Positions 8,446 through 55,450 of a DNA stretch of 64,000 nt are shown here, piece after piece. This DNA comes from Mesostigma viride (lineage: Eukaryota; Streptophyta; Mesostigmatophyceae; Mesostigmatales; Mesostigmataceae), in the NCBI GenBank assembly GCA_009746045.1, contig RPFO01000310.1, positions 1,000,234 through 1,064,233 on the forward strand, written 5' to 3'. Position numbers and translations under genes: made by a program. The first letter of the stretch is position 1, and every line of letters begins with the position of its first letter. The notes below the pieces were generated by a model. That model saw nothing but the letters and a program-made list of their open reading frames with translations, was not told the DNA's origin and ran no database searches.

Positions 8446-8559
8446 GCCAACACCCCACTGCATAAGGCATCAGAGGAAGGCCGTTTGGATGTCGTCCGGC
8501 AACTTCTCGCGACTTGTTTATTTTTCGACCGGAGGGCAATGATAGAGGCCAAGGATAAG
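8446..8559 (+). CDS. Gene A exon 1 (first recognised ANK repeat)
   Basis: The exon follows TGCTGCGTGCAG and precedes GTCAGT. It is 38 codons, phase 0. It starts ANTPLHKASEEGRLDVVRQL and then diverges: the usual IASGADV is replaced by a longer segment ending EAKDK. It lacks the first codon of the standard 33-residue exon, as does its counterpart at 31915-32010. The extended second helix makes this a capping or degenerate repeat. Confidence 0.75.
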
Positions 8560-9455
8560 GTCAGTTCAGGTTTTAGTGGTCTACTGGCTGTGGTTTTCTC
8601 CTATTGTTACGCAAATTCGAAGGATTGCAATGCGCACAATCGTTGAGCAGAAACTAGAGAGCATGCCTGCCCACGCTTTCCCCCCACTTGCATGCCCTTG
8701 TAATCAAGTTTTGCTTGCAAAGAATATTGAAGGCTGCTGGCCAGATGAATGCTACGGACCGAGACGCTAAACATGGTTTTTCAATGAATGACCATTGCAA
8801 GAGTTTATGTAGCTGTTTGTCTGTGTCGTCTGACAGCGCCCAATCATCCACAGATAGCTCCCCACCCTTGAATTGTCCTCTTTCCAATTACAGATACCTG
8901 GGAAGGATGAGCAGCTCATTGTGAGCAGCTCAGATATCGGCTCATTTTGAAAAGCTTGCGATCTATGTCACCTGCCCAGTGGACTCTTGTTTGTTTGGTG
9001 CATCGTCGCATTACTAAGGTTGACCTTGGCTGTCATTGAGCCATGCTGTTGAGGTCATGCCATGCGGGACAGCACCACGCACCGTGTCTGCCAGTACAAA
9101 CTCATGTTTTGCCGGCCTTGTATTCCTGTTTGCATTATGTCCCACTAATCCCAGTAACGCTTCGATTAGACTTTTGCCCAGAACAGCCGCTTGCTTGAGC
9201 GCATGTGCAGGGAAGACAACTGTCGATATCCTAGTGCAAACATCAACAGGTCTTTCCCAATCCTTTTTGTTGGCGGCACTCCGATCACGTATTCCAAGCG
9301 CATCCCATCCCCTTCGATCAGTGCGCACAATTTTACTTGCCCTTTGCTCGTCTGATCTGTTATCTGAGTCAAGTTTTGCTGTGCTCACGCGCTATGCGTT
9401 CCAGCACCCACGTGGGTAGTAATCCTGAGTACGAGGGGAAGCTAGGCAGTTATCA
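8560..9455. other. Gene A intron 1, 5' part, with unexplained open frame
   Basis: This is intronic sequence. On the - strand an open frame covers 9014-9388 (124 aa; contains HALKQAAVLGKSLIEALLGL and EFVLADTVRGAVPHGM). Its composition looks more protein-like than the + strand frame over the same bases, but I recognise no family and see no counterpart in unit 2. It may be a captured gene fragment. Confidence 0.3.
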
Positions 9456-11816: not shown

Positions 11817-11912
11817 GCTGGCTACACCCCGCTGCATCGTGCATCAAGGAAAGGCCATCTGGAGGTTGTTCGGCATCTCATCGCAAGTGGCGCGGATGTG
11901 GACGCTAAGAAG
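11817..11912 (+). CDS. Gene A exon 2, ANK repeat
   Basis: The exon lies between CTGCCCTCAG and GTTAGC, 32 codons, phase 0. It begins AGYTPLHRASRKGHLEVVRH and ends with the usual LIASGADV followed by DAKK, one codon shorter than the standard. Its donor, GTTAGC, differs from the GTCAGT used by most exons in the array. Confidence 0.82.
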
Positions 11913-12862: not shown

Positions 12863-12961
12863 GATGGGAGTACCCCGCTACATGAGGCGTCCGCAGGCGG
12901 CCATCTGGATGTCGTCCAGCATCTCATCGCCAGCGGCGCAGACGTGAACGCCGAGGACGAT
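12863..12961 (+). CDS. Gene A exon 3, ANK repeat
   Basis: This is a standard 99-nt phase 0-0 exon between GCTGTATCCAG and GTCAGT. The framework is TPLHxAS..GHLDVVQHLIASGADV. Variable positions read D1, S3, E8, A11-G12, N29 and E31-D-D33. Confidence 0.9.
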
Positions 12962-13463: not shown

Positions 13464-13562
13464 TTCGGGAGTACCCCGCTGCATCATGCATCAAAGGGTG
13501 GCCGTCTGGATTTCGTCCAGCATCTCATTGCCAGCGGCGCAGACATGGAGGCCAAGAACAGG
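13464..13562 (+). CDS. Gene A exon 4, ANK repeat
   Basis: 99-nt phase 0-0 exon between GCTGCCTCCAG and GTCAGT. Variable positions: F1, S3, H8, K11-G12, R14, F17, M28-E29 and K31-N-R33. The 500-bp intron before it has the conserved 3' block and no other gene. Confidence 0.9.
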
Positions 13563-14118: not shown

Positions 14119-14217
14119 GATGGGGATACCCCGCTGCATGAGGCGTCCGCAGGCGGCCATCTGGATGTCGTCCAGCATCTCATCGCCAGCGGCGCAGACG
14201 TGAACGCCAAGAGCGAT
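14119..14217 (+). CDS. Gene A exon 5, ANK repeat
   Basis: 99-nt phase 0-0 exon. The acceptor is GCTGCACTCTCAG, a variant shared with exons at 39172 and 50572 of gene B; the donor is GTCAGT. Variable positions: D1, D3, E8, A11-G12, N29 and K31-S-D33. Confidence 0.9.
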
Positions 14218-14741: not shown

Positions 14742-14840
14742 TATGGGAGTACCCCGCTGCATCGCGCATCATTTCAAGGCCATGTGGATGTCGTCCAGCA
14801 TCTCATCGCCAGCGGTGCAGATGTGGAGGCCAAGAACAGG
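14742..14840 (+). CDS. Gene A exon 6, ANK repeat
   Basis: 99-nt phase 0-0 exon between GCTGCCTCCAG and GTCAGT. Variable positions: Y1, S3, R8, F11-Q12, V15, E29 and K31-N-R33. The flanking introns closely match those of exon 4 (about 13590-13760 against 14870-15060), so exons 4 and 6 belong to a duplicated block. Confidence 0.9.
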
Positions 14841-19082: not shown

Positions 19083-19118
<36 letters not shown>

Positions 19119-19242: not shown

Positions 19243-19416
19243 AGGGGGGAAACGCCCCTGGATTGGGCCGAGAAATATATGGAAACGGACGTAGCACAGA
19301 TGTTGCGTCATGCTGCGGCCAAGCCAACAGTGGCCCAACCACGGGTGCAACAGCCGCCTGCCGCACCAAACAAGCCGCAGGTGCAACACCGGACTGACCC
19401 AGCTGAGGGAAAAGCA
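19243..19416 (+). CDS. Gene A exon 7, terminal half ANK repeat and linker
   Basis: The exon lies between CGATTGCAG and a canonical GTGAGT donor, 58 codons, phase 0. It starts RGETPLDWAEKYMETDVAQM, a C-terminal capping ANK helix pair, and continues into a Pro/Gln/Ala-rich linker containing QQPPAAPNKPQVQH. The gene B counterpart (51191-51259) has the cap but not the linker. Confidence 0.78.
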
Positions 19417-21084: not shown

Positions 21085-24000
21085 GCTATGAAGGATGCTT
21101 TTGCAGAGATTGACTGGCCTGCCTGCCAGTTGAATCCCCAACCTGGCCTGCTCTCCAGCCTGGAGGGTAAAGTAACCATCATGCAAGGAACCTGGACAGT
21201 TGCGCAGCTGGCCCACCGCATGGGGGTGGTGGTGAAGGGCAGCGCCTTGAATGCGGCGAGATTGGGCACAGAGCTTAGGCAAGAGGATCAGCGAAGCAGG
21301 GAGCAGCTGGCCCAGGCGCAGGCACAAGAGGACGTCATGCACCGCAAGCTGGCCCACCTTCGCCGGAACAGCACGGACGTGGCTGCGGCAAGGGAGCGGG
21401 ATGAGGCGGTGCAGGCATATGCGAGCAGCCTTCAGGCTCTGCGTGAGACTTTGGAGAAGAAGGCAGGCCTGTCGGAGCAGCGGCATAAGCAGCAGCTGGC
21501 GCTTAAGGAAACTATGGGTTTGTTTGACAGCAGCCAAGAGACATTGCCTGCTAGCGATGCGGGGAAAGGGCCTGAGCGAGACATGGAGTCAGCCGGCCGG
21601 CTGGCGCTTGAGCAGCTGAGGGCAGTGGTGAAGGACTGCGCTGATGAGCTGATGCCTGCATCGGTGGCTACACAGAAAGCCATGGAGCATTTGCAGGCGT
21701 GCTTGGAGAAACAGGAAAGCATCGCAGCGAAATTGCGGGGTCGGCTGGACGCTGCCGTCCAATCAGGGCAGCGGTTTGCAGCCTCGGTGCTTTCCCAGCT
21801 GAAGGGTGAGACTCCCGAGGAGGATGGCAGACATGCGCGAAAGATGTCAGAGGTAACATCCTTGCGTGAGAAGGAAGTGCGCAAGATGATGGCCCTGCGA
21901 GAGAGCATCCCAGGGACCCTGTCTCGCCTGGCCGCTGCTCAGCAGGAGAGCAAGCTGATCCAACGACAGCTCAGAAACACGCGCCACGACATCTTGGACG
22001 CGGAAGATGATGGGCGCACGGGGCAGCTGCAGCAGCTCAAGGAGAAGGAGAGGGCGCTGCTGGAGCAGGCCTCCAAGTTGGCCGCGGAACAAGCCACACT
22101 CTCTGAGTCGTTGGCGGATGCCAAGCTGCAGCAGTGGTACCCGGACTTGCTGGCGCAGGAGGAGCGCATCAAGGAGCTGCACAAATTTTTACCTGCAGGG
22201 ACCACCAAGGACCTCATGGACAATGAGTGGAACCTGTCCAAGTTCCGTGATAGCTCTGGAAAGCCGCTGATTTCAGGGAGTGTTGTATGGCGGGTGAGGC
22301 TGATGGAGGACTGGAATGGGAGGCAGTGGGTGGTGAAAGCAATGGGGCCAGGGCCGGAGTTGCGGCGGGAGGTCAACCGGCTGAAGGCGTTGCAGCACCC
22401 CCTGGTGATCCCCCTGGAGCGGGTGTTCATTGACAACAATGTGGCCTACCTGCAGATGCCCTACTACAAGAATGGGAACTTGCGTGGCTGGGTTGACAAC
22501 ATCGTGGGCGCCCAGAAGGGGGCAGCCAGCCTGACTACCCAGCAGGGTGCGCAGATCTGGAGCACGATGAAGCAGGTCTTCCAGGCGGTGGCCTTCCTCC
22601 ACCGCAAGGGCATCGTGCACCGCGACCTCAAGCCGGAGAATGTGCTGCTGCAGGATGACGGCCAGATCGCGCTGTGTGACTTTGGGGTCAGCCACGATGT
22701 GCTGGCCCACCTGCAGACGACCAAGGCAACGCTGGCCGTGGGGGGATACACCGCGTGCTATGCCGCCCCAGAGGTGCTTGCGGGGAAGGGCGTGTCCGCA
22801 AGCAACCCGTACGCCGAGGATCTATGGTCCCTGGGGGTGATGCTGCTGGAGCTGGCAGGGACCCGGCTGTCTTGGAACGCGATGACCTCCCGCCTGGAGG
22901 ATGAGCAGGGTCGCCCCATCAACACAGCCGACTTGCTGGTGGGCAAATCCAAGTGCCACCGCGATCTGATCACCCTGGCTGACTCCCTGCTTCAGAAGGA
23001 CCCTGACGCCCGGCCCAGTGCTGACGCGGTCCTTGCCAGCGAGTACTTCCAGCAAGACCCGTCCGCCAGCCAGGTGCAGCAGAACCGCCACCTGCTGCTG
23101 CTGACCAGCCACCTTGCGAAGCTGCGGCAGAGCCCTCAGGGTGGCGGGCGGCCCAAGACCCACGTGATGAAGTTGGACGTGCACGAGGGGCCCGGCATGG
23201 TTGCCCCGGTGCTGGCGCTGTTTGCTCGGGAGGACGTCAAGCCCGAGGAGACCGTGGTCGGCGAACATGCGGGCGTGCGCATCCCTCTCTCCGAGGTGCT
23301 CCACAACTTCTTTGCGGCGGTGGTGCTGCCTGCTGCAGGCCTGTTTGAGCAGGGCAAGGGGGATGGCGAGGATGCCAGTGGGTCTGGAGCGGCCTCCCAG
23401 GTGCGCGAGGGGGTGGCCTTCCTTCCCACCGTTTGCCAGGCGAGGGGCGCCAAGGCCACAAAGACCCACAGGCAGCGGCTGCGCACGGTGGGCAAGATCT
23501 TGGCCAAGGCGGTGTTACAGTGCATCCACGTGCCGGTGCAGTTTTGCAGCGCGCTCTTCTGTGCGCTGGTAGCCAAGGATGACCTCACGCAGTACAGCAC
23601 GGCCGACTGCCTGGAGATGCTGGCGGAGTTTGACCCCACCGATGCGCGCCGCATGCGCGTCACTCTGGCCATGAAGCACGGGGACGGCGAATCGGGGATC
23701 ACCCTGGGGGCCCTCATGGGCGATGCCGGCGCGGACGAGACCCTCATGACGGATGCCAACAAGGACCTGCTCGTGCGCAAGGCGATCCACCACCGCCTGG
23801 TCTTGACGCGGGCGGCCGAGCTCGCAGAGGTGCGCGCCGGCTTCCTGTGCCTCGACTGGGAGCCCCTGCTGGGTGTGCTGTCGCCGTTTGACCTGATGAC
23901 CCTCTTCTTTGGGACGGACTACCTGGACGTCAGCCGCGTCAGCCAGGCCTTCCAGCTGGACACGGCCAGCTGGGAGGGTAGAAAGGCGCAGGGGCAGCAG

Positions 24001-24537
24001 GCGTTGCAGTGGCTGCAGCGCTTCGTGCACGAGGCCTCAGAGACGTCCCTGCGCCTGTTCAGCATCTGTGCGCTGGGCGGCGCCAAGTCCTGGTGGTCGG
24101 GCATGTGTGCCGTGAAGAGGCTGGCCTCTGCCAGCAACGGGGGCCTGCCGGAGTTCTCCCGGGAGTCGGGCTCCCTGTACCTCCCTCTCCCCGGTAACGA
24201 CGGCTGCCCCTCGTACGAGGCGTTCAGCACGCGCATGTTTGCGGCGCTCAAGGTGCACGGGGAGTACGGCCAGCGCACCGAGGCGCAGCGTGCCCAGAAG
24301 ATGGGCATGGAGGAGATGCAGGGTGTGGTGCGGGCGATGGCGGGGCAGGTGAGGGCGGGGGGCTGGTACCGCTGCCCCAACGGCCACCTGTACTGCATCA
24401 CCGAGTGTGGCGGTGCCATGCAGGAGAGCACGTGTCCCACCTGCGGGAAAGGCATTGGCGGGAGCCAGCACCGGTTGAGGGGTGACAATGCGAATGCTCT
24501 GGACGTGGATGGGGCGCAGAGACCTGCATGGAACTGA
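21085..24537 (+). CDS. Gene A terminal exon: coiled coil - kinase - HECT-like - RZ finger
   Basis: This is 1150 codons plus TGA, numbered here from the first Ala after the acceptor. Residues about 60-370 are charged heptad-like coiled coil. The kinase spans about 400-660: Lys418 in WVVK, H512-R-D514 with N519 in HRDLKPEN, D532-F-G, and YAAPEVL. It looks catalytically complete, but the glycine loop is atypical. Residues about 735-1065 match HECT landmarks: RTVGKILAKAV (from 800), TDANKDLLVRKA (about 890), GFLCLDWEPLLGVLSPFDLM, and LPE...LYLP at 1021-1034. The usual catalytic Cys between those last two motifs is Glu1027. The C-terminus is an RZ finger, C1097-x3-H1101-x15-C1117-x2-C1120 followed by GKGIGGS. 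The Met 27 nt upstream of the acceptor is intronic and is not taken as a start. Confidence 0.9.
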   Translation, partial: AMKDAFAEIDWPACQLNPQPGLLSSLEGKVTIMQGTWTVAQLAHRMGVVVKGSALNAARLGTELRQEDQRSREQLAQAQAQEDVMHRKLAHLRRNSTDVAAARERDEAVQAYASSLQALRETLEKKAGLSEQRHKQQLALKETMGLFDSSQETLPASDAGKGPERDMESAGRLALEQLRAVVKDCADELMPASVATQKAMEHLQACLEKQESIAAKLRGRLDAAVQSGQRFAASVLSQLKGETPEEDGRHARKMSEVTSLREKEVRKMMALRESIPGTLSRLAAAQQESKLIQRQLRNTRHDILDAEDDGRTGQLQQLKEKERALLEQASKLAAEQATLSESLADAKLQQWYPDLLAQEERIKELHKFLPAGTTKDLMDNEWNLSKFRDSSGKPLISGSVVWRVRLMEDWNGRQWVVKAMGPGPELRREVNRLKALQHPLVIPLERVFIDNNVAYLQMPYYKNGNLRGWVDNIVGAQKGAASLTTQQGAQIWSTMKQVFQAVAFLHRKGIVHRDLKPENVLLQDDGQIALCDFGVSHDVLAHLQTTKATLAVGGYTACYAAPEVLAGKGVSASNPYAEDLWSLGVMLLELAGTRLSWNAMTSRLEDEQGRPINTADLLVGKSKCHRDLITLADSLLQKDPDARPSADAVLASEYFQQDPSASQVQQNRHLLLLTSHLAKLRQSPQGGGRPKTHVMKLDVHEGPGMVAPVLALFAREDVKPEETVVGEHAGVRIPLSEVLHNFFAAVVLPAAGLFEQGKGDGEDASGSGAASQVREGVAFLPTVCQARGAKATKTHRQRLRTVGKILAKAVLQCIHVPVQFCSALFCALVAKDDLTQYSTADCLEMLAEFDPTDARRMRVTLAMKHGDGESGITLGALMGDAGADETLMTDANKDLLVRKAIHHRLVLTRAAELAEVRAGFLCLDWEPLLGVLSPFDLMTLFFGTDYLDVSRVSQAFQLDTASWEGRKAQGQQALQWLQRFVHEASETSLRLFSICALGGAKSWWSGMCAVKRLASASNGGLPEFSRESGSLYLPLPGNDGCPSYEAFSTRMFAALKVHGEYGQRTEAQRAQKMGMEEMQGVVRAMAGQVRAGGWYRCPNGHLYCITECGGAMQESTCPTCGKGIGGSQHRLRGDNANALDVDGAQRPAWN

Positions 24538-29182: not shown

Positions 29183-31196
29183 TTTTAGAAGCCGGGCCCT
29201 GCATGGATTGGGGAGGTGTCAAGGAGGAAGGTCAGGGGGGAAAATCAAGGGGCGCAAAGACCGCTGGTAAGTCAGAGTGTCATAATGCTGGTGCAATGCC
29301 GCACATCGCAACATCATCTCTCCTGCATGGCGAGGCAGCGTTCGTGCTTGCCTGTCCTTAGACTGACACGACGGGAAAACATGACACTCAAATTGCTCAG
29401 TTAAGCATAGCCAAAAACGAAATAATCGCACTTTCTCGGAATGGTCTACCAGCCTACCGCACCTTGAAAGATCGGCGCCCGTGTCAGTAGACCAACTTGA
29501 AATGGCGTAATCTAGAACACTGGCTTACCGTGCAAATTTGCGGACAGGACACCATTTATGCAGGTGCCATCACGATAGCATATGCAAGCTTGCCGGGATG
29601 ATAAACCTCCAACAGCGACGAGACCGTGACTTGCCATGAAGGTATTGCCCGTCACGAGTTCCACAGAGAAACAAATATTTAGTGCCAACAGCAACGCGCA
29701 GCTCGGAATTTGTAATCGGCGTCCTGTGATGCAGGATAGTTATACACGCGATAGGCATGAACGATGTGACAGACCGGGCAAACCGCAAACCCTGCCTGTG
29801 CTCTGGCCGCAATCTCATCCCATGATGACTAGAGCTATGAATGATCTCATACGGCGGGCAGAGAACAGCGAAGGGCAACGTACAACTTCCACTTAAAGAG
29901 TAGCCCACCCACGGTCGACTATGAAGTTCTCGCCAGCAAAGCATATGGATTGATTTGTCGGAAGGCTTCATGCCTACAACCTGCGGGACCGTCAGGAGGA
30001 TATGGTGGGTTGGATCCTCTACGCTTCCACAGCAGCCTCTTTTGCGTGAGAGGCTTTTTGAAACCGCCAGCGGACATGATGTTACCGGAAATCTTAGCCT
30101 GCCATTTTTTCCCCGTTGGATTTGTGTTACTTGCGTATATGTACTGCATGAATGCACATTCGACGTGCATGCCACGCCAAGATTTCTGGTTTTGCGCCAA
30201 GTCACGTGCACGCCAGTGACGCCACAGCAGGCCACACGGTCCAAGGCGCTGCCAGCAAAGATCACCGTACAACTTTATCCGAAGGCAGCAGAATTATTCG
30301 CGCGGAAAGGTTAGTACGCAAAGTACATACACGTGGCCTAGCTGGCGGACCGTAATGTAAAGCAAATTACTTCGCGCTGGGGATGCCAAGAAAACGAAAA
30401 GACCATTTTTTTGTGCAAGTGTTTCATATAAACCGTTCCCCCCGGTCCCTTTCTCGGACTTCTCGTTGTCTACAATCTATCTAGTTGAACAATTCAAGTC
30501 GAACGGAGCACGGGGCCCAGCCTTAAGGGCCGGAGGATAGCGTGTTGTAGCTGTTTCTGGTACCAGAATGGTGAAGAGGTGGTGTGGATACTTGTGCTAG
30601 TCAGACTGTTCCCGCCCCTCTAAACACGAGATAAAACATCTGTGAGCAGATGAAGGGCTGCAAAGTTTTGCAATTCCATGCATCGCATCGGCGAATAGCG
30701 AGGCGCGAGTAAGGCGGAACGAGAAGGCTGCCAGTATTCGTGCACTGCCGTCGGCTTTCCACCGCATTCTCGTCTTTCAACAATGGTAAGAGATTGCGAG
30801 ATTGGCTGGCGCATGCATAATAATTCCCCCCTCTGCACCTTGCAAATCTGGCATGCTGTACTGGAAAATGCTCACCCTGTCGGTACCGCATCCAAGCAAG
30901 CATGAGGTGCCTTGAGTTACTACCTTGGGTGCCTTGAGTTTCCTTCACTGCCTATTGCTTTTACTTAATCCTTGTTAGGATTTGGACGTTGCTCAAGAGT
31001 GATCGCGCATATCCATGCCCTTAAACTAGAGTCCCAGTCGTCCTTACCTGACTATCTTTTCTTCTTGGTTGTATTTAGCAACAAATCAAGGGACAACAGG
31101 CACCCCTCGGTGATTGGGAGGTGGCGTTTGTGGATTAAGCGTATGTCAGGGATGGCTTTGGGCTATTGCAGGGAGCTAAACATCTCAGAGGTGCAA
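29183..31196. promoter_or_regulatory. Unassigned region upstream of gene B
   Basis: Diverged counterpart of 2915-5070. No recognised gene. The stretch just before the 82-bp array (ATGTCAGGGATG...) is conserved in both units, but it is open only in unit 2 and stops after seven codons in unit 1, so I do not call it a first exon. The gene B promoter and first exon(s) are expected here. Confidence 0.35.
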
Positions 31197-31858
31197 GCTA
31201 AGGGCAAGCATGGACCAGCGAATGGGGTGCACGTGTGTCTCATCGCTTGCTTGGCCAGCATGCCTGGTTCCTGTGGATGCTGAGGGCAAGCATGGACCAG
31301 CGCATGGGGTGCATGTGTGTCTCATCGCTTGCTTGGCCAGCATGCCTAGTTCCTGTGGATGCTGAGGGCAAGCATGGACCAGCGCACGGGGTGCACGTGT
31401 GTCTCATCGCTTGCTTGGCCAGCATGCCTGGTTCCTGCGGATGCTGAGGGCAAGCATGAACCAGCGCATGGGGTGCGCGTGTGTCTCATCGCTTGCTTGG
31501 CCAGCATGCCTGGTACCTGGGGATGCTGAGGGCAAGCATGGACCAGCGAATGTGTTGCACGTGTGTCTCATCGCTTGCTTGGCCAGCATGCCTGGTTCCT
31601 GCGGATGCTGAGGGCAAGCATGGACCAGCGCATGGGGTGCGCGTGTGTCTCATCGCTTGCTTGGCCAGCATGCCTGGTTCCTGTGGATGCTGAGGGCAAG
31701 CATGGACCAGCGCATGGGGTGCACGTGTGTCTCATCGCTTGCTTGGCCAGCATGCGTGGTTCCTGCGGATGCTGAGGGCAAGCATGGACCAGCGCATGTG
31801 CTGCACGTGTGTCTCATCGCTTGCTTCGCCAGCATGCCTGGTTCAAGTGACTGCTGAT
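31197..31858. repeat. 82-bp minisatellite, 8 copies
   Basis: Same unit as 5071-8376, with five times fewer copies. Some copies carry GCGGATGCTGAGGG or ACCTGGGGATGC variants. It also ends just before the first recognised ANK exon. Confidence 0.93.
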
Positions 31859-31914: not shown

Positions 31915-32010
31915 GCCGACAACCCGCTGCACAAGGCAATACAAGAAGGCTGTCTAGAAGATGTACAGCAGCTGATCTCAACTGGTGCAGACGTTGAGGT
32001 CAAGAACGAG
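31915..32010 (+). CDS. Gene B exon 1, ANK repeat
   Basis: The exon lies between TGCTGCGTTCAG and GTCAGT, 32 codons, phase 0. It begins ADNPLHKAIQEGCLEDVQQL and ends EVKNE. It is the counterpart of gene A exon 1 but keeps the normal second helix. Confidence 0.8.
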
Positions 32011-32616: not shown

Positions 32617-32715
32617 GTTGGGAGGACCCCCCTGCATTGTGCATCATCGGAAGGGCATCTGAGCATCGTCCAGAATCTTGTCACAAGCGGCGCGGCTGTG
32701 GACTCTAAGAATAAG
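32617..32715 (+). CDS. Gene B exon 2, ANK repeat
   Basis: 99 nt, phase 0-0, GCTGCATTCAG|...|GTCAGT. Diverged framework: V1, R3, C8, S11-E12, SIVQNLVTSGAAV and S30-K-N-K33. This is an older repeat outside the amplified block. Confidence 0.85.
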
Positions 32716-33725: not shown

Positions 33726-33824
33726 TATTTGAGTACCCCACTGCTTTTGGCGTCAAGCAATGGCCATCTGGACGTCGTCCAGCATCTCATCGCCAGCGGC
33801 GCGGATGTGAATGCCAAGAATGAG
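33726..33824 (+). CDS. Gene B exon 3, ANK repeat
   Basis: 99 nt, phase 0-0, GGATCCAG|...|GTCAGT. The conserved PLH is changed to PLL and Gly2 to Leu (YLSTPLLLASSNGHLDVVQH). Ends K31-N-E33. Confidence 0.85.
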
Positions 33825-35105: not shown

Positions 35106-35204
35106 CATGGAGATGCCCCGATTTCCGTCGCATCAGAGGGTGGCCACCTGGAAGTTGTCCAGCATCTCATTACATGCGGCGCAAATGTGAACGCCAAGGC
35201 AAAT
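35106..35204 (+). CDS. Gene B exon 4, degenerate ANK repeat
   Basis: 99 nt, phase 0-0, TGTACTCAG|...|GTCAGT. It starts HGDAPISVASEGGHLEVVQH; the TPLH signature is altered to APIS, and TCGAN replaces ASGAD. Still open and in phase. Confidence 0.78.
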
Positions 35205-36167: not shown

Positions 36168-36287
36168 GATGGGTGGACCCCGCTGCATCGTGTGTCATCC
36201 AACGGTCATCTAAACGTCATTAAGTATCTCATCTCAAGCGGCGCGGACTTGAACGCCAAGGCCTCTGCCCATGAGCTCTGGGTTCGT
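36168..36287 (+). CDS. Gene B exon 5, ANK repeat with unclear donor
   Basis: The acceptor is TACTGCATCCAG. The repeat is DGWTPLHRVSSNGHLNVIKY and then LISSGADLNAKAS. At the usual end (36266) the sequence is GCCCAT instead of GTCAGT. The next plausible donor is the GC-type GCAAGT at 36288. Using it gives a 120-nt exon of 40 codons that keeps phase 0. The end coordinate is therefore tentative; the repeat may instead be dead or skipped. Confidence 0.55.
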
Positions 36288-36963: not shown

Positions 36964-37062
36964 GGTGGGAGAATCCCGCTGCATGTGGCGTCGTTACATG
37001 GCCATCTGGACGTTGTCCAGCATTTCATCGGCTGCGGTGCGGATGTGAACGCCAAGGACGAT
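36964..37062 (+). CDS. Gene B exon 6, ANK repeat
   Basis: 99 nt, phase 0-0, GCTGCATCCAG|...|GTAAGG. The only array exon in gene B with a purine at donor +3. GGRIPLHVASLHGHLDVVQH, then FIGCGADVNAKDD. Confidence 0.86.
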
Positions 37063-39171: not shown

Positions 39172-39270
39172 GATGGGTATACCCCGCTACATTGCGCATC
39201 ATGTGGTGGCCATCTGGATGTCGTCCAGCATCTTATCGCCAGCGGCGCAGACATGAAGGCCAAGGACAAT
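39172..39270 (+). CDS. Gene B exon 7, ANK repeat
   Basis: 99 nt, phase 0-0, GCACTCTCAG|...|GTCAGT. D1, Y3, C8, C11-G12, M28-K29 and K31-D-N33. Confidence 0.9.
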
Positions 39271-39752: not shown

Positions 39753-39854
39753 AAATATGTTTGGACCCCGCTGCATTTTGCATCAAGGAACGGCCGTCTG
39801 AACGTTGCCCAGCATCTCATCGCCAGCGGGGCAGACCTGAAAGACAAGGACGAG
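39753..39854 (+). CDS. Gene B exon 8, 34-codon ANK repeat
   Basis: GCTGTCTCCAG|...|GTCAGT, 102 nt, phase 0-0. One extra codon at the start (KYVWTPLHFASRNGRLNVAQ), then LIASGADL and K29-D-K-D-E33. The inner turn is unusual. Confidence 0.85.
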
Positions 39855-40450: not shown

Positions 40451-40549
40451 GATGGGTATACTCCGCTGCATGAGGCATCAGAGGGTGGCCATCTGGATGT
40501 TGTCCAGCATCTCATTGCAAGTGGCGCGGATGTGCACGCCGTGAACAAG
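40451..40549 (+). CDS. Gene B exon 9, ANK repeat
   Basis: 99 nt, phase 0-0, GCTGCCTCCAG|...|GTCAGT. Closest to the array consensus: D1, Y3, E8, E11-G12, H29 and V31-N-K33. Start of the amplified block. Confidence 0.92.
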
Positions 40550-41067: not shown

Positions 41068-41166
41068 GATGGGTATACTCCGCTGCATGAGGCATCAAAG
41101 GGTGGCCATCTGCATGTCGTCCAGCATCTCATCTCCAGCTGCGCGGATGTGCACGCCGAGGACCAG
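41068..41166 (+). CDS. Gene B exon 10, ANK repeat
   Basis: 99 nt, phase 0-0, GCTGCCTCCAG|...|GTCAGT. D1, Y3, E8, K11-G12, H16, SSCAD (Gly27 to Cys equivalent), H29 and E31-D-Q33. Confidence 0.9.
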
Positions 41167-41678: not shown

Positions 41679-41777
41679 GGTGGGAGTACCCCACTGCATG
41701 AGGCGTCATTTGGTGGCCATCTGGATGTCGTCCAGCATCTCATCTCCAGCGGCGCAGACGTGAAGGCAAAGGACGAT
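41679..41777 (+). CDS. Gene B exon 11, ANK repeat
   Basis: 99 nt, phase 0-0, GCTGCATCCAG|...|GTCAGT. G1, S3, E8, F11-G12, K29 and K31-D-D33. Confidence 0.91.
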
Positions 41778-42238: not shown

Positions 42239-42337
42239 TATGGGGGTACCCCGCTGCATGAGGCATCAAAGGGTGGCCATCTGCATGTCGTCCAGCATCT
42301 CATCTCCAGCGGCGCAGACGTGAAGGCAAAGGACTGG
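42239..42337 (+). CDS. Gene B exon 12, ANK repeat
   Basis: 99 nt, phase 0-0, GCTGCCTGCAG|...|GTCAGT. Y1, G3, E8, K11-G12, H16, K29 and K31-D-W33. The preceding intron has the shortened 'GATGGGCTGATGTTTTGTAT' form. Confidence 0.91.
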
Positions 42338-42826: not shown

Positions 42827-42925
42827 GGTGGGGATACTCCACTGCATCAGGCATCAGAGGGTGGCCATCTGGATGTTCTCCAGCATCTCATTGCAAGTGG
42901 CGCGGATGTGCACGCCGTGAAAAAG
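42827..42925 (+). CDS. Gene B exon 13, ANK repeat
   Basis: 99 nt, phase 0-0, GCTACCTCCAG|...|GTCAGT. G1, D3, Q8, E11-G12, L18, H29 and V31-K-K33. Confidence 0.91.
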
Positions 42926-43421: not shown

Positions 43422-43520
43422 TATGGGGGTACCCCGCTGCATGAGGCATCAAAGGGTGGCCATCTGGATGTCGTCCGGCATCTCATCGCCAGCGGCGCAG
43501 ACGTGAAGGCAAAGGACAAT
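43422..43520 (+). CDS. Gene B exon 14, ANK repeat
   Basis: 99 nt, phase 0-0, GCTGCATCCAG|...|GTCCGT. Y1, G3, E8, K11-G12, R19, K29 and K31-D-N33. Encodes the same protein sequence as exon 15. Confidence 0.9.
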
Positions 43521-44017: not shown

Positions 44018-44116
44018 TATGGGGGTACCCCGCTGCATGAGGCATCAAAGGGTGGCCATCTGGATGTCGTCCGGCATCTAATCGCCAGCGGCGCAGACGT
44101 GAAGGCAAAGGACAAT
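44018..44116 (+). CDS. Gene B exon 15, ANK repeat
   Basis: 99 nt, phase 0-0, GCTGCATCCAG|...|GTCCGT. Same residues as exon 14, with one silent change (CTC to CTA). Confidence 0.9.
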
Positions 44117-44993: not shown

Positions 44994-45092
44994 TTTGGGA
45001 GTACCCCACTGCATTATGATTCAAAGGGTGGCCATCTGGATGTCGTCCAGCATCTCATCGCCAGCGGCGCAGACGTGAACGCCAAGAGCAAT
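44994..45092 (+). CDS. Gene B exon 16, ANK repeat
   Basis: 99 nt, phase 0-0, GCTGGATCCAG|...|GTCAGT. F1, S3, Y8, D9 (the framework Ala becomes Asp), K11-G12, N29 and K31-S-N33. Confidence 0.9.
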
Positions 45093-45626: not shown

Positions 45627-45725
45627 TATGGGGATACCCCGCTGCATGAGGCATCAGAGGGTGGCCATCTGGATGTTTTCCAGCATCTCATCGCCAGCGG
45701 CGCAGACGTGAAGGCAAAGGACAAT
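45627..45725 (+). CDS. Gene B exon 17, ANK repeat
   Basis: 99 nt, phase 0-0, GCTGCATCCAG|...|GTCCGT. Y1, D3, E8, E11-G12, F18, K29 and K31-D-N33. Confidence 0.9.
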
Positions 45726-46603: not shown

Positions 46604-46702
46604 CGTGGGAGAACCCTGCTGCATTATGCGTCAGGGGGTGGCCATCCGGATATCGTCCAGCATCTCATCGCCAGCGGCGCAGACGTGAATGCCAAATGTG
46701 AT
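46604..46702 (+). CDS. Gene B exon 18, ANK repeat
   Basis: 99 nt, phase 0-0, GCTGGATCCAG|...|GTCAGT. R1, R3, TLLHYAS, G11-G12, HPDIV, N29 and K31-C-D33. Confidence 0.9.
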
Positions 46703-47190: not shown

Positions 47191-47289
47191 GATGGGAGAA
47201 CCCTGCTGCATTATGCGTCAGGGGGTAACCATCCGGATATCGTCCAGCATCTCATCGCCAGCGGCGCAGACGTGAACGCCAAGAGCAAT
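47191..47289 (+). CDS. Gene B exon 19, ANK repeat
   Basis: 99 nt, phase 0-0, GCTGCCTCCAG|...|GTCAGT. D1, R3, TLLHYAS, G11-G12, N13 replacing the framework Gly, HPDIV, and K31-S-N33. Confidence 0.9.
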
Positions 47290-47799: not shown

Positions 47800-47898
47800 G
47801 ATGGGGATACTCCGCTGCATGAGGCATCAAAGGGTGGCCATCTGGATGTTTTCCAGCATCTCATCGCCAGCGGCGCAGACGTGAAGGCAAAGGACAAT
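47800..47898 (+). CDS. Gene B exon 20, ANK repeat
   Basis: 99 nt, phase 0-0, GCTGCATCCAG|...|GTCCGT. D1, D3, E8, K11-G12, F18, K29 and K31-D-N33. Confidence 0.9.
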
Positions 47899-48776: not shown

Positions 48777-48875
48777 CGTGGGAGAACCCTGCTGCATTAT
48801 GCGTCAGGGGGTGGCCATCCGGATATCGTCCAGCATCTCATCGCCAGCGGCGCAGACGTGAATGCCAAATGTGAT
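48777..48875 (+). CDS. Gene B exon 21, ANK repeat
   Basis: 99 nt, phase 0-0, GCTGGATCCAG|...|GTCAGT. Same residues as exon 18. Confidence 0.9.
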
Positions 48876-49356: not shown

Positions 49357-49455
49357 GATGGGAGAACCCCGCTGATTGATGCGTCAGAAGAAGGGCACCT
49401 GGATGCCATCCGGCATCTCATCGCAAGTGGCGGGGATGTGAACGCTGCGGACAAG
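49357..49455 (+). CDS. Gene B exon 22, ANK repeat
   Basis: 99 nt, phase 0-0, GCTGCCTCCAG|...|GTCAGT. DGRTPLIDASEEGHLDAIRH, then LIASGGDVNAADK. TPLH is changed to TPLI. Last exon of the amplified block. Confidence 0.88.
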
Positions 49456-49660: not shown

Positions 49661-49720
49661 GCAGCAGCTGGCAGCGGTTGGCAGCGACTGGCAGAGGCTG
49701 GCAGCAGCTGGCAGCCCATG
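49661..49720. repeat. CTGGCAGCAG/CTGGCAGCGR short repeat
   Basis: About six imperfect 10-bp units (CTGGCAGCAG, TTGGCAGCGA, CTGGCAGAGG and similar). Confidence 0.8.
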
Positions 49721-50075
49721 GCAAATGTGGTTTGCCTGTATTCACATATGTGCAGTCGCATCCTGGTTTCAGGGATCACATGGATCTAGGAAGATATCTG
49801 GCCAGGGTTAAATGGCCCTCCCCACCTAAAACTGCCTGGTCGCACATCATGCCCAGCAGGTTTTTCAAGGCAGGATCGCCATGACCTCGTACTATACACT
49901 AGGGAAAGAGAGTTGGCAGGCGTGGCTTTTGCAACAGCCAGGATGTCAGCATGTATTTCAATGCCCATGCCAGCAGCCAGGGACCATGACATTCATGGGT
50001 GTGGGCTCATCTCCAGCCGCCTTCTCAAGGATGCTTGCATGGTTCTCGCTAATGCACCAGCATGTCAGCTGAGGT

Positions 50076-50571: not shown

Positions 50572-50670
50572 GATGGGTATACCCCATTGCATAGAGCATC
50601 ATGGACGGGCTCTCTGGATATCATCCGGCATCTCATCGCCAGCGGCGCAGATGCGAACGCCAAGAATCAT
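50572..50670 (+). CDS. Gene B exon 23, ANK repeat
   Basis: 99 nt, phase 0-0, GCACTCTCAG|...|GTCCGT. DGYTPLHRASWTGSLDIIRH, then LIASGADANAKNH. Outside the amplified block. Confidence 0.88.
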
Positions 50671-51190: not shown

Positions 51191-51259
51191 GCGGGCAAGA
51201 CACCCCTTGACCTTGCTGAGGAAGAAAAGGAAGCGGACGCGGCGCAGTTGTTGCGAGAG
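51191..51259 (+). CDS. Gene B exon 24, terminal half ANK repeat
   Basis: The exon lies between AACTACAG and a canonical GTAAGC donor, 23 codons, phase 0. AGKTPLDLAEEEKEADAAQL, then LRE. C-terminal ANK cap. It lacks the Pro/Gln-rich linker of gene A exon 7. Confidence 0.82.
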
Positions 51260-51997
51260 GTAAGCCCCAGGCGCAGCAGTCACCTGCCACATTAACTGTG
51301 GAGAACGTGGTGAGAGCGGCCAAAGGGTTAGTCCTGCGCCCTGTGGCCACCTGCTGCCAACAACCCAAAAAGCATGCTAGTGCTCTTTCATTATGTGTAT
51401 GACCACCTTCAACGCACTTGGGCAGGCGCGATTGGTTCTCGGACCGATGGCAAGCACACCGCACTCTATGATGCAGTAGAAGGCCATGGTTAACAGGCAT
51501 CCTTTCAAGTTAGGAAATCATTCTGGCTTGGCTCCATAATGCATCCTTGGAACGCCCCACCCTTTCTTAAGTATGATTAGAAGTGGCACCTCAATTACAA
51601 GACCCATACGTTGTGCCTGCATAAGCCAAACTACTTGTTGACTCGTTGAACATCCGAGAAGTGCATAGTGCTCGCAATCCTCATTTTCTTCTTTCCCTCA
51701 AATATTCTCCCCATCCTCGGCTTTTGTACAGTGACCTTATGTCCTCACCTATCTCTCATGATCTTCTATACCCGCTGGTCTTGCATGCTGATCAGCCAGA
51801 GCCCTTGTGAGATCAAGTTTTGAAGAGCATGGCAGAGTCAGGATGCGCACTGGTATGCTGCCCCAGGCGACCACTTCCCAATCTTGCTACCTGCGATTGC
51901 ATACTACCTATAATGCTTGTGGTAAAGTAAACCTGACCTGCTCGCCCTGTATGTGGTTGGCTCATCTTGCTGCATGCTCATGCCTGACGGGGAACAG
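51260..51997. other. Gene B intron 24 (738 bp)
   Basis: Nothing recognised. Acceptor is GGGGAACAG. Confidence 0.65.
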
Positions 51998-54900
51998 GCT
52001 ATGAGGGACGTTCTTGCCGAGATTGACTGGGCCACCCATCAGTCGATTCCACAACCTGGCCTCCTGGCCAGCCTGGAGGGTATGGTGCCAGGCATACAGG
52101 AAACCTGGACACTTGCGCAGACCGCCCACCGCATGGGGGTGATGGTGGAGGGCAGCGCCTTGAATGCGGCGAGACTAGGCGAACAGCTCGAGCAAGAAGG
52201 TCAGCGCAGCAGGGAGCGTCTGACCCAGGTGCAGGTGCAAGAAGAGGCCATGCACCGCAAGCTAGCCCACCTTCGCCGGAACAGCACGGACGTGGCTGCG
52301 GCAAGGGAGCGGGATGAGGCGGTGCAGGCATTTGCGAGCAGCCTTCACGCTCTGCGTGAGACTTTGGAGAAGAAGGCAGGCCTGTCGGAGCAGCGACTCA
52401 AGCAGCAGCTGTTGCTAAAAGAAACCATGGGTCTGTTTGACAGCAGCCAAGAGACACTGCCTGCTAGCGATGCGGGGAAAGGGCCTGAGCTAGACAAGGA
52501 GGCAAACGGCCGGCTGGCGCTTGCGCAGCTGAGGCAGGTGGTGAAGGACTGCAATGATGAGCTGATGCCTGCAGCGGTAGCTACACAGAAAGCAATGGAG
52601 CATTTGCAGGCCTGCTTGGAGCAGCAGCAAAGCATCGCAGCTAAGTTGCGGGGTCGGCTGAATGCTGCCGTCCAATCAGGGCAGCGGGTTGCAGCCTCTG
52701 CGCTTTCCCAGCTGAAGGCTGAGACTCCCGAGGAGGATGGCAGACATGCGCGCAAGATGTCCGAGATAACGGCCTTGCAACAGAAGGAACTGCACATGAT
52801 GATGGCCCTGCGAGAGAGCATCCCAGGGACCCTGTCTCGCCTAGCCGCTGCTCAGCAGGAGAGCAAGCTGATCCAACGACAGCTCAGAAACACGCGCCAC
52901 GACATCTTGGACGCGGAGGATGATGGGCGCAAGGGGCAGCTGCAGCAGCTCAAGGAAAAGGAGAGGGCGCTGTTGGAGCAAGCATCCAAGTTGGCTGCGG
53001 AACAAGCCACGCTGTCCGAGTCGTTGGCGGATGCCAAGCTACAGCAGTGGTACCCGGACTTGCTGGCGCAGGAGGAGCGCATCAAGGAACTGCACAAGTT
53101 CCTACCGGCAGGGACCAGCAGGGACCTGATTGACAACGAGTGGAACCTGTCCAAGTTCCGCGATGGCTCTGGCAAACCTTTGATGCCAGGGAGAGGCGTA
53201 TGGCGGGTGCGGCTGATGGAGGACTGGAACGGGAGGCAGTGGGTGGTGAAGGAGATGGGGCCGGGGCCGGAGTTGCGGCGGGAGGTCAACCGGCTGAAGG
53301 CGTTGCAGCACCCTCTGGTGATCCCCCTGGAGCGGGTGTTCATTGATAACAACGTGGCCTACCTGCAGATGCCTTACTACAAGAATGGGAACTTGCGTGG
53401 CTGGGTTGACAGCATCGTGGGCGCCCAGAAGGGGGCAGCGAGCCTGACCACCCAACAGGGTGCGCAGATCTGGAGCACGATGAAGCAGGTGTTCCAGGCA
53501 GTGGCCTTCCTCCACCGCAAGGGCATCGTGCACCGCGACCTCAAGCCGGAGAATGTGCTGCTGCAGGATGACGGCCAGATCGCGCTGTGTGACTTTGGGG
53601 TCAGCCACGATGTGCTGGCGCACCTGCAGACGACCAAGGCAACGCTGTCCGTGGGGGGATACACCGCGTGCTATGCCGCCCCGGAGGTGCTTGCGGGGAA
53701 GGGCATATCCCCGAGCAACCCATACGCCGAGGACCTGTGGTCCCTGGGGGTGATACTGCTTGAGCTGGCAGGGACCCGGCTGTCTTGGAACCCGACCACC
53801 TCCCGCCTGGAGGATGAGCAGGGTCGCCCCATCAACACGGCCGACTTGCTGGTGGGCAAGTCCAAGTGGCACCGCGATCTGATCACCCTGGCTGACTCCC
53901 TGCTTCAGAAGGACCCTGACGCACGGCCCAGTGCTGACGTGGTCCTTGCCTGCGAGTTCTTCCAACAAGACCCGTCCGCCAGCCAGGTGCAGCAGAACCG
54001 CCACCTGCTGCTGCTGACCAGCCACATGGCGAAGCTGCGGCAGAGCCCTCAGGGTGGCGGGCGGCCCAAGACCCACGTGATGAGGTTGGACGTGTGCGAG
54101 GGGCCCGGCATGGTTGCCCCGGTGCTGGCGCTGTTTGCTCGGGAGGACGTCAAGCCCGAGGAGACCGTGGTGGGCGAACATGCGGGCGTGCGCATCCCTC
54201 TCTCCGAGGTGCTCCACAACTTCTTTGAGGCGGTGGTGCTGCCCGCTGCAGGCCTGTTTGAGCAAGGCAAGGGGGATGGCGAGGATGCAAGTGGGTCTGG
54301 AGCGGCCTCCCAGGTGCGCGAGGGGGTGGCCTTCCTTCCCAGGGTTTGCCAGGCCAGGGACGCCAAGGCCGTGGAGACCCACCGCCAGAAGCTGCGCACG
54401 GTGGGCAAGATCTTGGCCAAGGCGGTGCTGCAGTGCATCCACGTGCCGGTGCAGTTTTGCAGCGCGCTCTTCTGTGCGCTGCTGGCCAAGGACGACCTCA
54501 CGCAGTACAGCACGGCCGACTGTCTGGAGATGCTGGCGGAGTTTGACCCCACCGATGCGCGCCGCATGCGTGTCACTCTGGCCATGAAGCACGGGGATGG
54601 CGAATCGGGGATCACCCTGGGGGCCCTCATGGGCGATGTCGATGCGGATGAGACCCTCATGACGGATGCCAACAAAGACCTGCTCGTGCGCAAGGCGATC
54701 CACCACCGCCTGGTCTTGAGGCGGGCGGCCGAGCTCGCAGAGGTGCGTGCCGGCTTCCTGTGCCTCGACTGGGAGCCCCTGCTGGGTGTGCTGTCGCCGT
54801 TTGACCTGATGACCCTCTTCTTTGGGACGGACTACCTGGACGTCAGCCGCGTCAGCCTGGCATTCCAGCTGGACACCGCCAGCTGGGTGGGCAGGGAGGC

Positions 54901-55450
54901 GCAAGGGCAGCAGGCGTGGCAGTGGCTGCAGCGCTTCGTGCACGAGGCCTCGGAGACGTCCCTGCGCCTGTTCAGCATCTGCGCCCTGGGCGGCGCAAAG
55001 TCCTGGTGGTCGGGCATGTGTGCCGTGAAGAGGCTGGCCTCTGCCAGCAACGGGGGCCTGCCGGAGTTGTCCCGTGAGTCGGGCTCCCTGTACCTCCCTC
55101 TCCCCGGTAACGATGGCTGCCCCTCGTACGAGGCGTTCAGCGCGCGCATGTTTGCAGCGCTCAAGGTGCATGGAGAGTACGGCCAGCGCACGGAGGCGCA
55201 GCGTGCCCAGAAGATGGGCATGGAGGAGATGCAGGGTGTGGTGCGGGCGATGGCGGGGCAGGTGAGGGCGGGGGGCTGGTACCGCTGCCCCAACGGCCAC
55301 CTGTACTGCATCACCGAGTGTGGCGGTGCCATGCAGGAGAGCACGTGCCCCACCTGCGGGAAAGGCATTGGCGGGAGCCACCACCGGTTGAGGGGCGACA
55401 ACGCGAATGCACTTGATGTGGATGGGGCGCAGAGGCCCGCATGGAACTAA
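51998..55450 (+). CDS. Gene B terminal exon: coiled coil - kinase - HECT-like - RZ finger
   Basis: Same length as the gene A exon (1150 codons plus TAA), with no net indel, so residue numbers are shared. Kinase: Lys418, H512-R-D514, N519 and D532-F-G are all kept. HECT-like: the LPE...LYLP motif is kept and Glu1027 again occupies the catalytic Cys position (codon 55076-55078). RZ finger: C1097, H1101, C1117 and C1120 are kept. Differences from gene A are uneven. I count 28 in the first 91 residues and only one or two in the last 90. Long open frames on the opposite strand (one of 825 codons) are a by-product of GC-rich third positions. The Met at 51953 is in the intron. Confidence 0.9.
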   Translation, partial: AMRDVLAEIDWATHQSIPQPGLLASLEGMVPGIQETWTLAQTAHRMGVMVEGSALNAARLGEQLEQEGQRSRERLTQVQVQEEAMHRKLAHLRRNSTDVAAARERDEAVQAFASSLHALRETLEKKAGLSEQRLKQQLLLKETMGLFDSSQETLPASDAGKGPELDKEANGRLALAQLRQVVKDCNDELMPAAVATQKAMEHLQACLEQQQSIAAKLRGRLNAAVQSGQRVAASALSQLKAETPEEDGRHARKMSEITALQQKELHMMMALRESIPGTLSRLAAAQQESKLIQRQLRNTRHDILDAEDDGRKGQLQQLKEKERALLEQASKLAAEQATLSESLADAKLQQWYPDLLAQEERIKELHKFLPAGTSRDLIDNEWNLSKFRDGSGKPLMPGRGVWRVRLMEDWNGRQWVVKEMGPGPELRREVNRLKALQHPLVIPLERVFIDNNVAYLQMPYYKNGNLRGWVDSIVGAQKGAASLTTQQGAQIWSTMKQVFQAVAFLHRKGIVHRDLKPENVLLQDDGQIALCDFGVSHDVLAHLQTTKATLSVGGYTACYAAPEVLAGKGISPSNPYAEDLWSLGVILLELAGTRLSWNPTTSRLEDEQGRPINTADLLVGKSKWHRDLITLADSLLQKDPDARPSADVVLACEFFQQDPSASQVQQNRHLLLLTSHMAKLRQSPQGGGRPKTHVMRLDVCEGPGMVAPVLALFAREDVKPEETVVGEHAGVRIPLSEVLHNFFEAVVLPAAGLFEQGKGDGEDASGSGAASQVREGVAFLPRVCQARDAKAVETHRQKLRTVGKILAKAVLQCIHVPVQFCSALFCALLAKDDLTQYSTADCLEMLAEFDPTDARRMRVTLAMKHGDGESGITLGALMGDVDADETLMTDANKDLLVRKAIHHRLVLRRAAELAEVRAGFLCLDWEPLLGVLSPFDLMTLFFGTDYLDVSRVSLAFQLDTASWVGREAQGQQAWQWLQRFVHEASETSLRLFSICALGGAKSWWSGMCAVKRLASASNGGLPELSRESGSLYLPLPGNDGCPSYEAFSARMFAALKVHGEYGQRTEAQRAQKMGMEEMQGVVRAMAGQVRAGGWYRCPNGHLYCITECGGAMQESTCPTCGKGIGGSHHRLRGDNANALDVDGAQRPAWN

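Follow-up and report, generated by a model that had tools for sequence, protein, structure and literature searches.

Two genes arranged in tandem on the plus strand of Mesostigma viride contig RPFO01000310.1 (assembly GCA_009746045.1) appear to join arrays of single-repeat ankyrin exons to one large terminal exon, here called the chassis, which encodes a protein kinase, a HECT-like region with glutamate at the catalytic cysteine position and an RZ zinc finger with the residue set of RNF213. The stretch analysed, hereafter the window, comprises 64,000 nt (contig positions 1,000,234 to 1,064,233). Amino-acid change within the repeats is concentrated at predicted target-contact positions, and the chassis is under purifying selection overall. 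We read each gene, with a probability of about 0.5, as encoding one diversified intracellular recognition receptor with a kinase and an RZ-ubiquitin output, which would work in an NLR-like manner without being an NLR. The DNA itself shows the modules, the phases of the exons, which catalytic residues are retained or replaced, the pattern of selection and the tandem duplication.

Two tandem genes with ankyrin arrays of unequal length

Copy 1 carries six and copy 2 carries 23 single-repeat ankyrin exons upstream of a 3453-bp exon. The two largest open reading frames (ORFs) of the window (51926-55450, 1174 amino acids; 21049-24537, 1162 amino acids) are 91% identical, as are, at the protein level, the two terminal exons, both of which are open. 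A first-pass annotation, made from the letters alone, had proposed two tandem genes at 8446..55450 with the domain order kinase, HECT-like region and RZ finger behind an ankyrin array; the coordinates proved right, and Pfam matches on the terminal exons together with spliced models bear out both the pair and the order.

Comparison of the window with itself paired an upstream block (3774-4854 with 30001-30927), the terminal exon with its 3' flank (21082-27777 with 51995-58960), and the start of the window with the sequence from 26761 onward and from 57918 onward. We read these matches as two complete genes, flanked at either edge of the window by the end of an adjacent copy, which suggests that further tandem copies lie beyond. 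The candidate starts of the two copies are 26 kb apart.

Spliced models of copy 1 (nine exons, 1411 amino acids) and copy 2 (25 exons, 1900 amino acids, exon 36168 omitted) contain no internal stop. The terminal exon begins at an acceptor CAG/GCTATG (the slash marks the junction) at 21085 and 51998, and the terminal exon, the cap exon ahead of it and 28 of 29 ankyrin exons share phase 0 and AG/GT borders, which suggests that array and terminal exon are joined in one predicted transcript. An ATG/GTAAGAG sequence inside the conserved upstream block is kept in both copies (4704, 30783); placing the start there is a guess from that conservation. The exons outside array and chassis, and the repeats in the putative first introns, are:

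4704..4706, plus strand, candidate first coding exon of copy 1, an ATG that runs straight into GTAAGAG (conservation between copies)
5071..8376, ~40 copies of an 82-bp minisatellite within the putative first intron of copy 1
19243..19416, plus strand, copy 1 ankyrin-like cap and linker exon (AG/GT, phase 0)
30783..30785, plus strand, copy 2 candidate first coding exon, ATG/GTAAGAG (conservation between copies)
31197..31844, ~8 copies of an 82-bp minisatellite within the putative first intron of copy 2
51191..51259, plus strand, copy 2 ankyrin-like cap exon (splice sites, spliced model)

The two cap exons and the two candidate starts were absent from the first-pass annotation. The ORF of the copy 1 cap exon gave no Pfam match.

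The terminal exon combines a kinase, a probably inactive HECT domain and an RZ finger

Both terminal exons encode the same succession of modules:

21085..24537, plus strand, terminal exon of copy 1, coding for a helical stretch, a kinase, a pseudo-HECT and an RZ finger (1150 amino acids, 3453 bp)
22357..23049, plus strand, copy 1 protein kinase (Pfam stretch)
23449..24060, plus strand, copy 1 HECT-like region (Pfam stretch)
24334..24492, plus strand, copy 1 RZ finger (Pfam, residue pattern)
51998..55450, plus strand, terminal exon of copy 2, coding for a helical stretch, a kinase, a pseudo-HECT and an RZ finger (1150 amino acids, 3453 bp)
53270..53962, plus strand, copy 2 protein kinase, HRD and DFG inside, beta3 Lys just upstream (Pfam stretch)
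54356..54973, plus strand, copy 2 HECT-like region; C-lobe extends downstream, Glu for catalytic Cys (Pfam stretch, alignment)
55247..55405, plus strand, copy 2 RZ finger; predicted nucleophile codon 55319-55321 (Pfam, residue pattern)

Pfam recognised the kinase at 6.8e-40 in copy 1 and 1.5e-38 in copy 2, and the catalytic beta3 lysine, HRD aspartate and DFG aspartate are present. These are kept in 15 of the 16 chassis proteins compared, the exception being P0125, a model without most of the kinase.

With respect to the HECT-like region, Pfam matches were obtained in copy 1 (1.5e-08), copy 2 (6.1e-08) and all five pieces scanned. A profile of the region, run against solved structures, retrieved NEDD4 (2.2e-06), then UBR5, HUWE1 and other HECT ligases, and the piece from Myrmecia aligned across the C-lobe of E6AP (E 0.0017); N-lobe and C-lobe are both recognisable by these comparisons. 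In the joint alignment, E6AP LPTSHTCFNVLLLP lies over LPELSRESGSLYLP in the window, LPTFEREMGCMYLP in P0009, LPAFERETGCMYMP in P0006, LPLFERRGGYLRMP in P0010 and APIFHAEARVVFLA in P0011. The position of the HECT catalytic cysteine is occupied by Glu in four of five members, the window among them, and by Arg in the fifth, while an HTCF-type motif was found in none of the 16 chassis proteins (13 informative; the models P0012, P0013 and P0125 lack that stretch). A deletion of the catalytic loop was considered and rejected, since the loop is there in the E6AP alignment, with Glu standing at the place of Cys. Judged by its residues, the domain is predicted to be catalytically dead, in keeping with the label 'pseudo-HECT' that it had been given.

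The RZ finger matched Pfam at 1.1e-20 (copy 1) and 1.2e-20 (copy 2), and RNF213 chains were matched by sequence at E 1.4e-07. In RNF213, metal is bound by C4505, H4509, C4525 and C4528, and C4516 and H4537 are predicted to be nucleophile and base, respectively; the alleles H4509A and C4516S left three tested targets without ubiquitylation (PMC11549300). All six residues recur at RNF213 spacing in both copies (C1121, H1125, C1132, C1141, C1144 and H1153, with C1132 and H1153 at offsets +11 and +32), and the finger thus looks catalytically complete by residues; its earlier identification as an RZ finger is borne out. Strict spacing is found in 12 of the 16 chassis proteins; the models P0012 and P0125 have no RZ domain. 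Among animal RZ-finger proteins, RNF213 acts on bacterial lipopolysaccharide and ZNFX1 with long RNA, ubiquitylation of RNA itself by the latter being disputed (PMC13270118). The Pfam scan of the terminal exons returned no NACHT or NB-ARC among matches up to E 1, no AAA+ or helicase match and no RING over the cut-off; a Sina_RING match below it (E 0.29) overlaps the RZ finger.

Between the two copies, the ratio of nonsynonymous to synonymous substitution rates (dN/dS) over the whole chassis is 0.24, with 0.03 in the RZ finger and tail, 0.17 in the kinase, 0.21 in linker and HECT and 0.33 in the coil. The value for linker and HECT implies that the HECT-like region probably retains a use, albeit one other than that of a classical HECT ligase.

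One ankyrin repeat per symmetrical exon

A six-frame scan with a hidden Markov model (HMM), seeded with eight window and four homologue repeats and iterated on its own matches (its E-values are thus partly by construction), returned 29 ankyrin exons, all on the plus strand, of which six lie between 8446 and 14840 (copy 1) and 23 between 31915 and 50670 (copy 2). The weakest had E 9.9e-07 and the next match E 0.38; the minus strand of the window gave no match with E<1. A strict ankyrin pattern occurred eight times in the window and in none of ten block shuffles, and on the shuffles and the HMM scan together a chance origin was rejected. The exons are:

8446..8559, plus strand, copy 1 ankyrin exon 1, 114 nt (HMM, spliced model)
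11817..11912, plus strand, copy 1 ankyrin exon 2, 96 nt (HMM, splice sites, spliced model)
12863..12961, plus strand, copy 1 ankyrin exon 3, 99 nt, phase 0-0 (HMM, splice sites)
13464..13562, plus strand, copy 1 ankyrin exon 4 (HMM, splice sites)
14119..14217, plus strand, copy 1 ankyrin exon 5 (HMM, splice sites)
14742..14840, plus strand, copy 1 ankyrin exon 6 (HMM, splice sites)
31915..32010, plus strand, copy 2 ankyrin exon 1, 96 nt (HMM, spliced model)
32617..32715, plus strand, copy 2 ankyrin exon 2 (HMM, splice sites)
33726..33824, plus strand, copy 2 ankyrin exon 3 (HMM, splice sites)
35106..35204, plus strand, copy 2 ankyrin exon 4 (HMM, splice sites)
36168..36266, plus strand, copy 2 ankyrin exon 5, no GT donor, nominal end, possibly dead (HMM; omitted from spliced model)
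36964..37062, plus strand, copy 2 ankyrin exon 6 (HMM, splice sites)
39172..39270, plus strand, copy 2 ankyrin exon 7 (HMM, splice sites)
39753..39854, plus strand, copy 2 ankyrin exon 8, 102 nt (HMM, splice sites, spliced model)
40451..40549, plus strand, copy 2 ankyrin exon 9 (HMM, splice sites)
41068..41166, plus strand, copy 2 ankyrin exon 10 (HMM, splice sites)
41679..41777, plus strand, copy 2 ankyrin exon 11 (HMM, splice sites)
42239..42337, plus strand, copy 2 ankyrin exon 12 (HMM, splice sites)
42827..42925, plus strand, copy 2 ankyrin exon 13 (HMM, splice sites)
43422..43520, plus strand, copy 2 ankyrin exon 14 (HMM, splice sites)
44018..44116, plus strand, copy 2 ankyrin exon 15, protein identical to exon 14 (HMM, splice sites)
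44994..45092, plus strand, copy 2 ankyrin exon 16 (HMM, splice sites)
45627..45725, plus strand, copy 2 ankyrin exon 17 (HMM, splice sites)
46604..46702, plus strand, copy 2 ankyrin exon 18 (HMM, splice sites)
47191..47289, plus strand, copy 2 ankyrin exon 19 (HMM, splice sites)
47800..47898, plus strand, copy 2 ankyrin exon 20 (HMM, splice sites)
48777..48875, plus strand, copy 2 ankyrin exon 21, DNA identical to exon 18 (HMM, splice sites)
49357..49455, plus strand, copy 2 ankyrin exon 22 (HMM, splice sites)
50572..50670, plus strand, copy 2 ankyrin exon 23 (HMM, splice sites)

With boundaries fixed at 33 codons (99 nt), AG precedes and GT follows 24 of the 29 exons; once irregular ends were moved, all but one were AG/GT-bordered and in phase 0-0. 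The array thus consists of single-repeat exons, which bears out its earlier description as expandable: a symmetrical exon that codes for a single repeat can be added, removed or exchanged with the reading frame left intact. Units of ~0.6 to 2.8 kb have been duplicated together with their introns, very recently in two cases, given that exons 43422 and 44018 encode the same protein and exons 46604 and 48777 are identical in DNA. Short runs of GGCCGG and related sequence recur in the ankyrin introns (40800-49723), several of them near ends of matching duplicated units, and are possible break points.

Repeats diversify at predicted target-contact positions

Selection tests used 26, 25 or 24 of the 29 ankyrin exons depending on the test, and 24 for the omega and pairwise tests. 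Exons 8446, 11817 and 31915, which are first exons or of irregular length, were omitted throughout, 39753 (102 nt) from the 25-exon and 24-exon tests, and 48777, a duplicate of 46604, from the 24-exon tests; the donor-less exon 36168 was retained. An ankyrin binder library randomises positions 2, 3, 5, 10, 13 and 14 of D-x-x-G-x-T-P-L-H-x-A-A-x-x-G (PMC3308923), which, shifted by two, are residues 33, 1, 3, 8, 11 and 12 of the window repeat. The five most variable of the 33 repeat residues are 11, 33, 8, 3 and 1, with residue 12 eighth, so that the library positions rank 1, 2, 3, 4, 5 and 8; none of 200,000 random six-position sets was as variable.

A codon model with separate omega classes on a nucleotide tree of the 24 exons gave omega 3.42 at the six library positions versus 0.47 at the other 27 (likelihood-ratio statistic (LRT) against omega 1, 52.3). 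Control sets of six, which we chose ourselves from ankyrin structure, gave 0.32 (buried) and 0.52 (convex side and loop). A first test with classical DARPin positions had returned omega 2.78 versus 0.58 (LRT 29.6). In pairwise comparisons, the proportion of nonsynonymous differences (pN) was 0.539 at contacts versus 0.131 elsewhere, and that of synonymous differences (pS) 0.362 versus 0.308; contact pN over the overall pS of 0.315 equals 1.71 (bootstrap 1.46-2.06). The similar synonymous change at contact codons and elsewhere argues that the contacts are not simply mutation hot spots. An excess of change at predicted target-contact positions is thus found, among paralogous repeats of a single assembly.

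Exon and intron distances were compared for 19 of the 29 exons; the mean was 0.193 for the exons, 0.161 for the intron upstream and 0.243 for the one downstream. Exons were further apart than their flanks in the pairs 13464/14742 and 44994/46604, and closer in 12863/14119 and 40451/42827.

The chassis recurs in green algae with exchanged heads

Protein searches scored the 8000 candidates with most words in common, and in one of them the best 120 of 1966 matches were considered; the family spread described here is therefore a lower bound. Best among the matches listed were the M. viride Mesvir1 models 17139 and 17142 (P0003 and P0004), with 95% identity over query residues 395-1165. At 91-94% identity overall to the two window copies, they are identical to neither, so that the window may represent another strain or further copies. 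At least 12 distinct Mesvir1 gene names carry a chassis or a damaged chassis model. P0003-P0005 have no annotated head; P0009, P0010, P0012 and P0125 have an ankyrin head (P0012 without HECT and RZ, P0125 without RZ and most of the kinase). A USP7-like head with a UCH domain precedes the chassis in P0006, P0123 and P0124 of Mesostigma, and P0007 and P0008 place USP7 tail domains on it. The P0124 head (Mesvir1/1955; USP7 match at 8.1e-74) reads GANPVANP where USP7 has GATCYMNS; it looks dead, because the replaced Cys is what we take to be the USP7 nucleophile, and is possibly a decoy.

Ankyrin repeats, kinase, HECT and RZ occur in one predicted protein in P0009 and P0010 (M. viride) and in P0013 (Trebouxia sp. 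C0006), and P0011 of Myrmecia bisecta has kinase, HECT and RZ. Identity over 95-100% of the kinase-to-RZ region is 48% for P0009, 42% for P0010 and 34% for P0011; P0013 reaches 38% over 40% of it, its model having a gap in the HECT region. In P0009, clathrin propeller and linker matches precede the ankyrin repeats, perhaps through a model fusion. Outside Mesostigma, the matches listed come from Myrmecia bisecta, Trebouxia sp. C0006 and the fragments P0133 and P0134. The chassis is thus common to one streptophyte and to green algae that are presumably trebouxiophytes. The nearest non-chassis relatives among the matches listed are seven RZ proteins with PF13087, which we take to be a helicase-type domain, among which one bears the name NFX1-type zinc finger-containing protein 1-like. 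Viral and prokaryotic relatives of the HECT-RZ part were sought as well; 4 and 23 stretches, respectively, matched the pattern and none was confirmed.

The first-pass annotation knew of no described protein with this domain order and suggested a search of other proteomes. Our literature search, which covered the architecture, Mesostigma, diversified repeats, RZ and ankyrin libraries and few subscription papers, likewise found no description of it; the order is not unique, however, given that the predicted proteins P0009, P0010 and P0013 also have ankyrin, kinase, HECT and RZ. New relative to that annotation are the apparently complete set of RNF213-type RZ residues, the Glu-for-Cys HECT, the contact-position diversification and the purifying selection on the chassis.

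A proposed diversified recognition receptor and its alternatives

From these features we infer a helical coil, the binding of ligands, an order of events, a role for the HECT-like region and an immune or self/non-self purpose. The encoded protein is probably cytosolic. The variable concave ankyrin face would bind a foreign or non-self protein, and binding would cluster the proteins via the putative helical coil, upon which the kinases could phosphorylate one another or partners. The dead HECT may act as a platform for regulation or docking, possibly one on which ubiquitin-loaded E2 sits, and the RZ finger would load ubiquitin on Cys1132 and hand it over to the ligand, the receptor itself or a microbial surface. 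An immune or self/non-self role, put forward earlier, stays conjectural, though the repeat diversification at target-contact positions now lends it support. An M. viride library has yielded a genome of 'Ca. Megaira', a Rickettsiales symbiont (PMC10132079), and this bacterium is a possible target of the window receptors.

More tentatively, the family could represent an NLR-independent recognition system at the streptophyte base: a multigene family with exchangeable heads on one kinase, dead-HECT and RZ chassis, HECT catalysis having been handed to the RZ finger and ubiquitin being written on the intruder. The heads would be either an ankyrin 'library' of 99-nt symmetrical exons or dead USP7-like decoys.

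Several observations weigh against a recognition receptor. In the chassis, the glycine loop of the kinase is degenerate, judged by eye; of 23 windows of 50 codons, one has dN/dS 1.3 and one 0.88; Myrmecia P0011 carries two extra residues between the last two RZ zinc cysteines, and Trebouxia P0013 has Tyr instead of His as an RZ zinc ligand. Exon 36168-36266, the one exception to the AG/GT rule, keeps an intact repeat with no GT donor and is apparently on its way out. The nearest annotated models, P0003 and P0004, start with the terminal exon and lack ankyrin, so that public models do not show the join between array and terminal exon. As to the repeats, the library set is independent in origin but was looked up after the variability table and had not been chosen in advance; omega can be inflated where repeats recombine with one another; close repeat pairs differ at non-contact positions too; overall pN/pS is 0.68; and rapid 'horizontal' repeat divergence, mostly under relaxed purifying selection, is general (PMC5120217).

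The generality of such divergence, an overall pN/pS that stays at or below 1, and the duplication of intron-containing units with two protein-identical exon pairs would all suit a housekeeping ankyrin-kinase/ubiquitin signalling protein, its array built by unequal crossing-over and its exposed positions drifting unconstrained, with no part in recognition. We consider this possible but doubtful: relaxation alone should yield omega of at most 1, yet it reaches 3.4 at the contact positions, while the equally large convex-side and loop set stays at 0.52 and synonymous change at contact codons is close to that elsewhere.

It is unlikely, though less so than a split of the locus into two genes, that the same machine serves ligands of self or symbiont origin (mating, cell recognition, symbiont housing) as opposed to attackers' proteins; this overlaps with the recognition receptor proper, and our probabilities are not mutually exclusive. 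The 'Ca. Megaira' genome from an M. viride library implies that a partner to tolerate or police exists (PMC10132079), and in fungi repeat-diversified ankyrin NLRs are tied to self/non-self recognition (PMC4986451).

That the ankyrin exons and the 3453-bp exon are separate genes, with a stand-alone chassis that starts in the terminal exon or shortly ahead of it and an array that is a gene of its own or in decay, is improbable: the beginnings of P0003 and P0004 and the 4.4 kb between the last ordinary ankyrin exon and the cap exon of copy 1 speak for it, but the shared phase 0 and AG/GT borders, the two open spliced proteins, a duplicated unit bounded by the upstream block at one end and the terminal exon at the other, and the single predicted proteins P0009, P0010 and P0013 speak against it.

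Comparison with known systems

The closest working analogue of the proposed receptor is the fungal NLRs with highly conserved ankyrin repeats, e.g. PNP_UDP/NACHT/ANK of Podospora. Their repeats show positive selection on the concave binding face (one site excepted) and polymorphic repeat number, discussed as fitting non-self recognition (PMC4986451). As far as that account extends, near-identical repeats in differing numbers, a selected contact face, exchangeable partner domains and a multigene family are common to both. Unlike the fungal genes, those of the window have no NACHT or NB-ARC in the Pfam scan of their terminal exons and are, on that test, not NLRs; their output would be kinase, pseudo-HECT and RZ, they carry one repeat per exon in a green alga, and the difference in repeat number (6 versus 23) lies between paralogues of one assembly.

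With RNF213 and ZNFX1 they share an RZ finger in which the four zinc ligands, the nucleophile Cys and the base His stand at RNF213 spacing (PMC11549300, PMC13270118), but the finger of the window genes lies at the C terminus, after a kinase and a dead HECT, with no AAA+ or helicase match in the terminal exons. The HECT profile match and the alignment to E6AP through the C-lobe recall HECT ligases (E6AP, NEDD4, UBR5, HACE1), in contrast to which the family has Glu or Arg for the catalytic Cys. HACE1 likewise pairs ankyrin repeats with HECT. Where Mesostigma P0006, P0123 and P0124 bear a head resembling USP7, the window genes carry ankyrin. Unlike copy 2, the models P0009, P0010, P0011 and P0013 show, by eye, no long near-identical repeat array.

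If the proposal holds, a ubiquitin finger of the RNF213/ZNFX1 type, known from animal cell-autonomous immunity, would sit in a green-lineage receptor with a germline-diversified binding arm. The layout of the ligase, a dead HECT beside a live RZ finger, would be one that our literature search did not meet. The host is a unicellular alga, placed close to the base of the lineage that led to land plants, whose libraries have yielded a 'Ca. Megaira' genome (PMC10132079), and its genes offer direct tests of how single-celled algae discriminate self, symbiont and parasite.

Other reading frames and intergenic minisatellites

ORFs 16663-17592, 28256-29179, 34525-35187, 19069-19461 and 9024-9416, and the minus-strand ORFs 15886-16455, 53105-55594 and 57087-57770, gave no Pfam match over the curated cut-off and were rejected. 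These frames in introns, flanks and the minus strand had a few weak matches below it. Between the genes lie 88-bp minisatellites (993-1900, 10 copies; 58909-63529, 52 copies) and 78-bp minisatellites (2613-2922, 4 copies; 28335-29185, 11 copies). As 78 is a multiple of three, the latter probably keep spurious long frames open.

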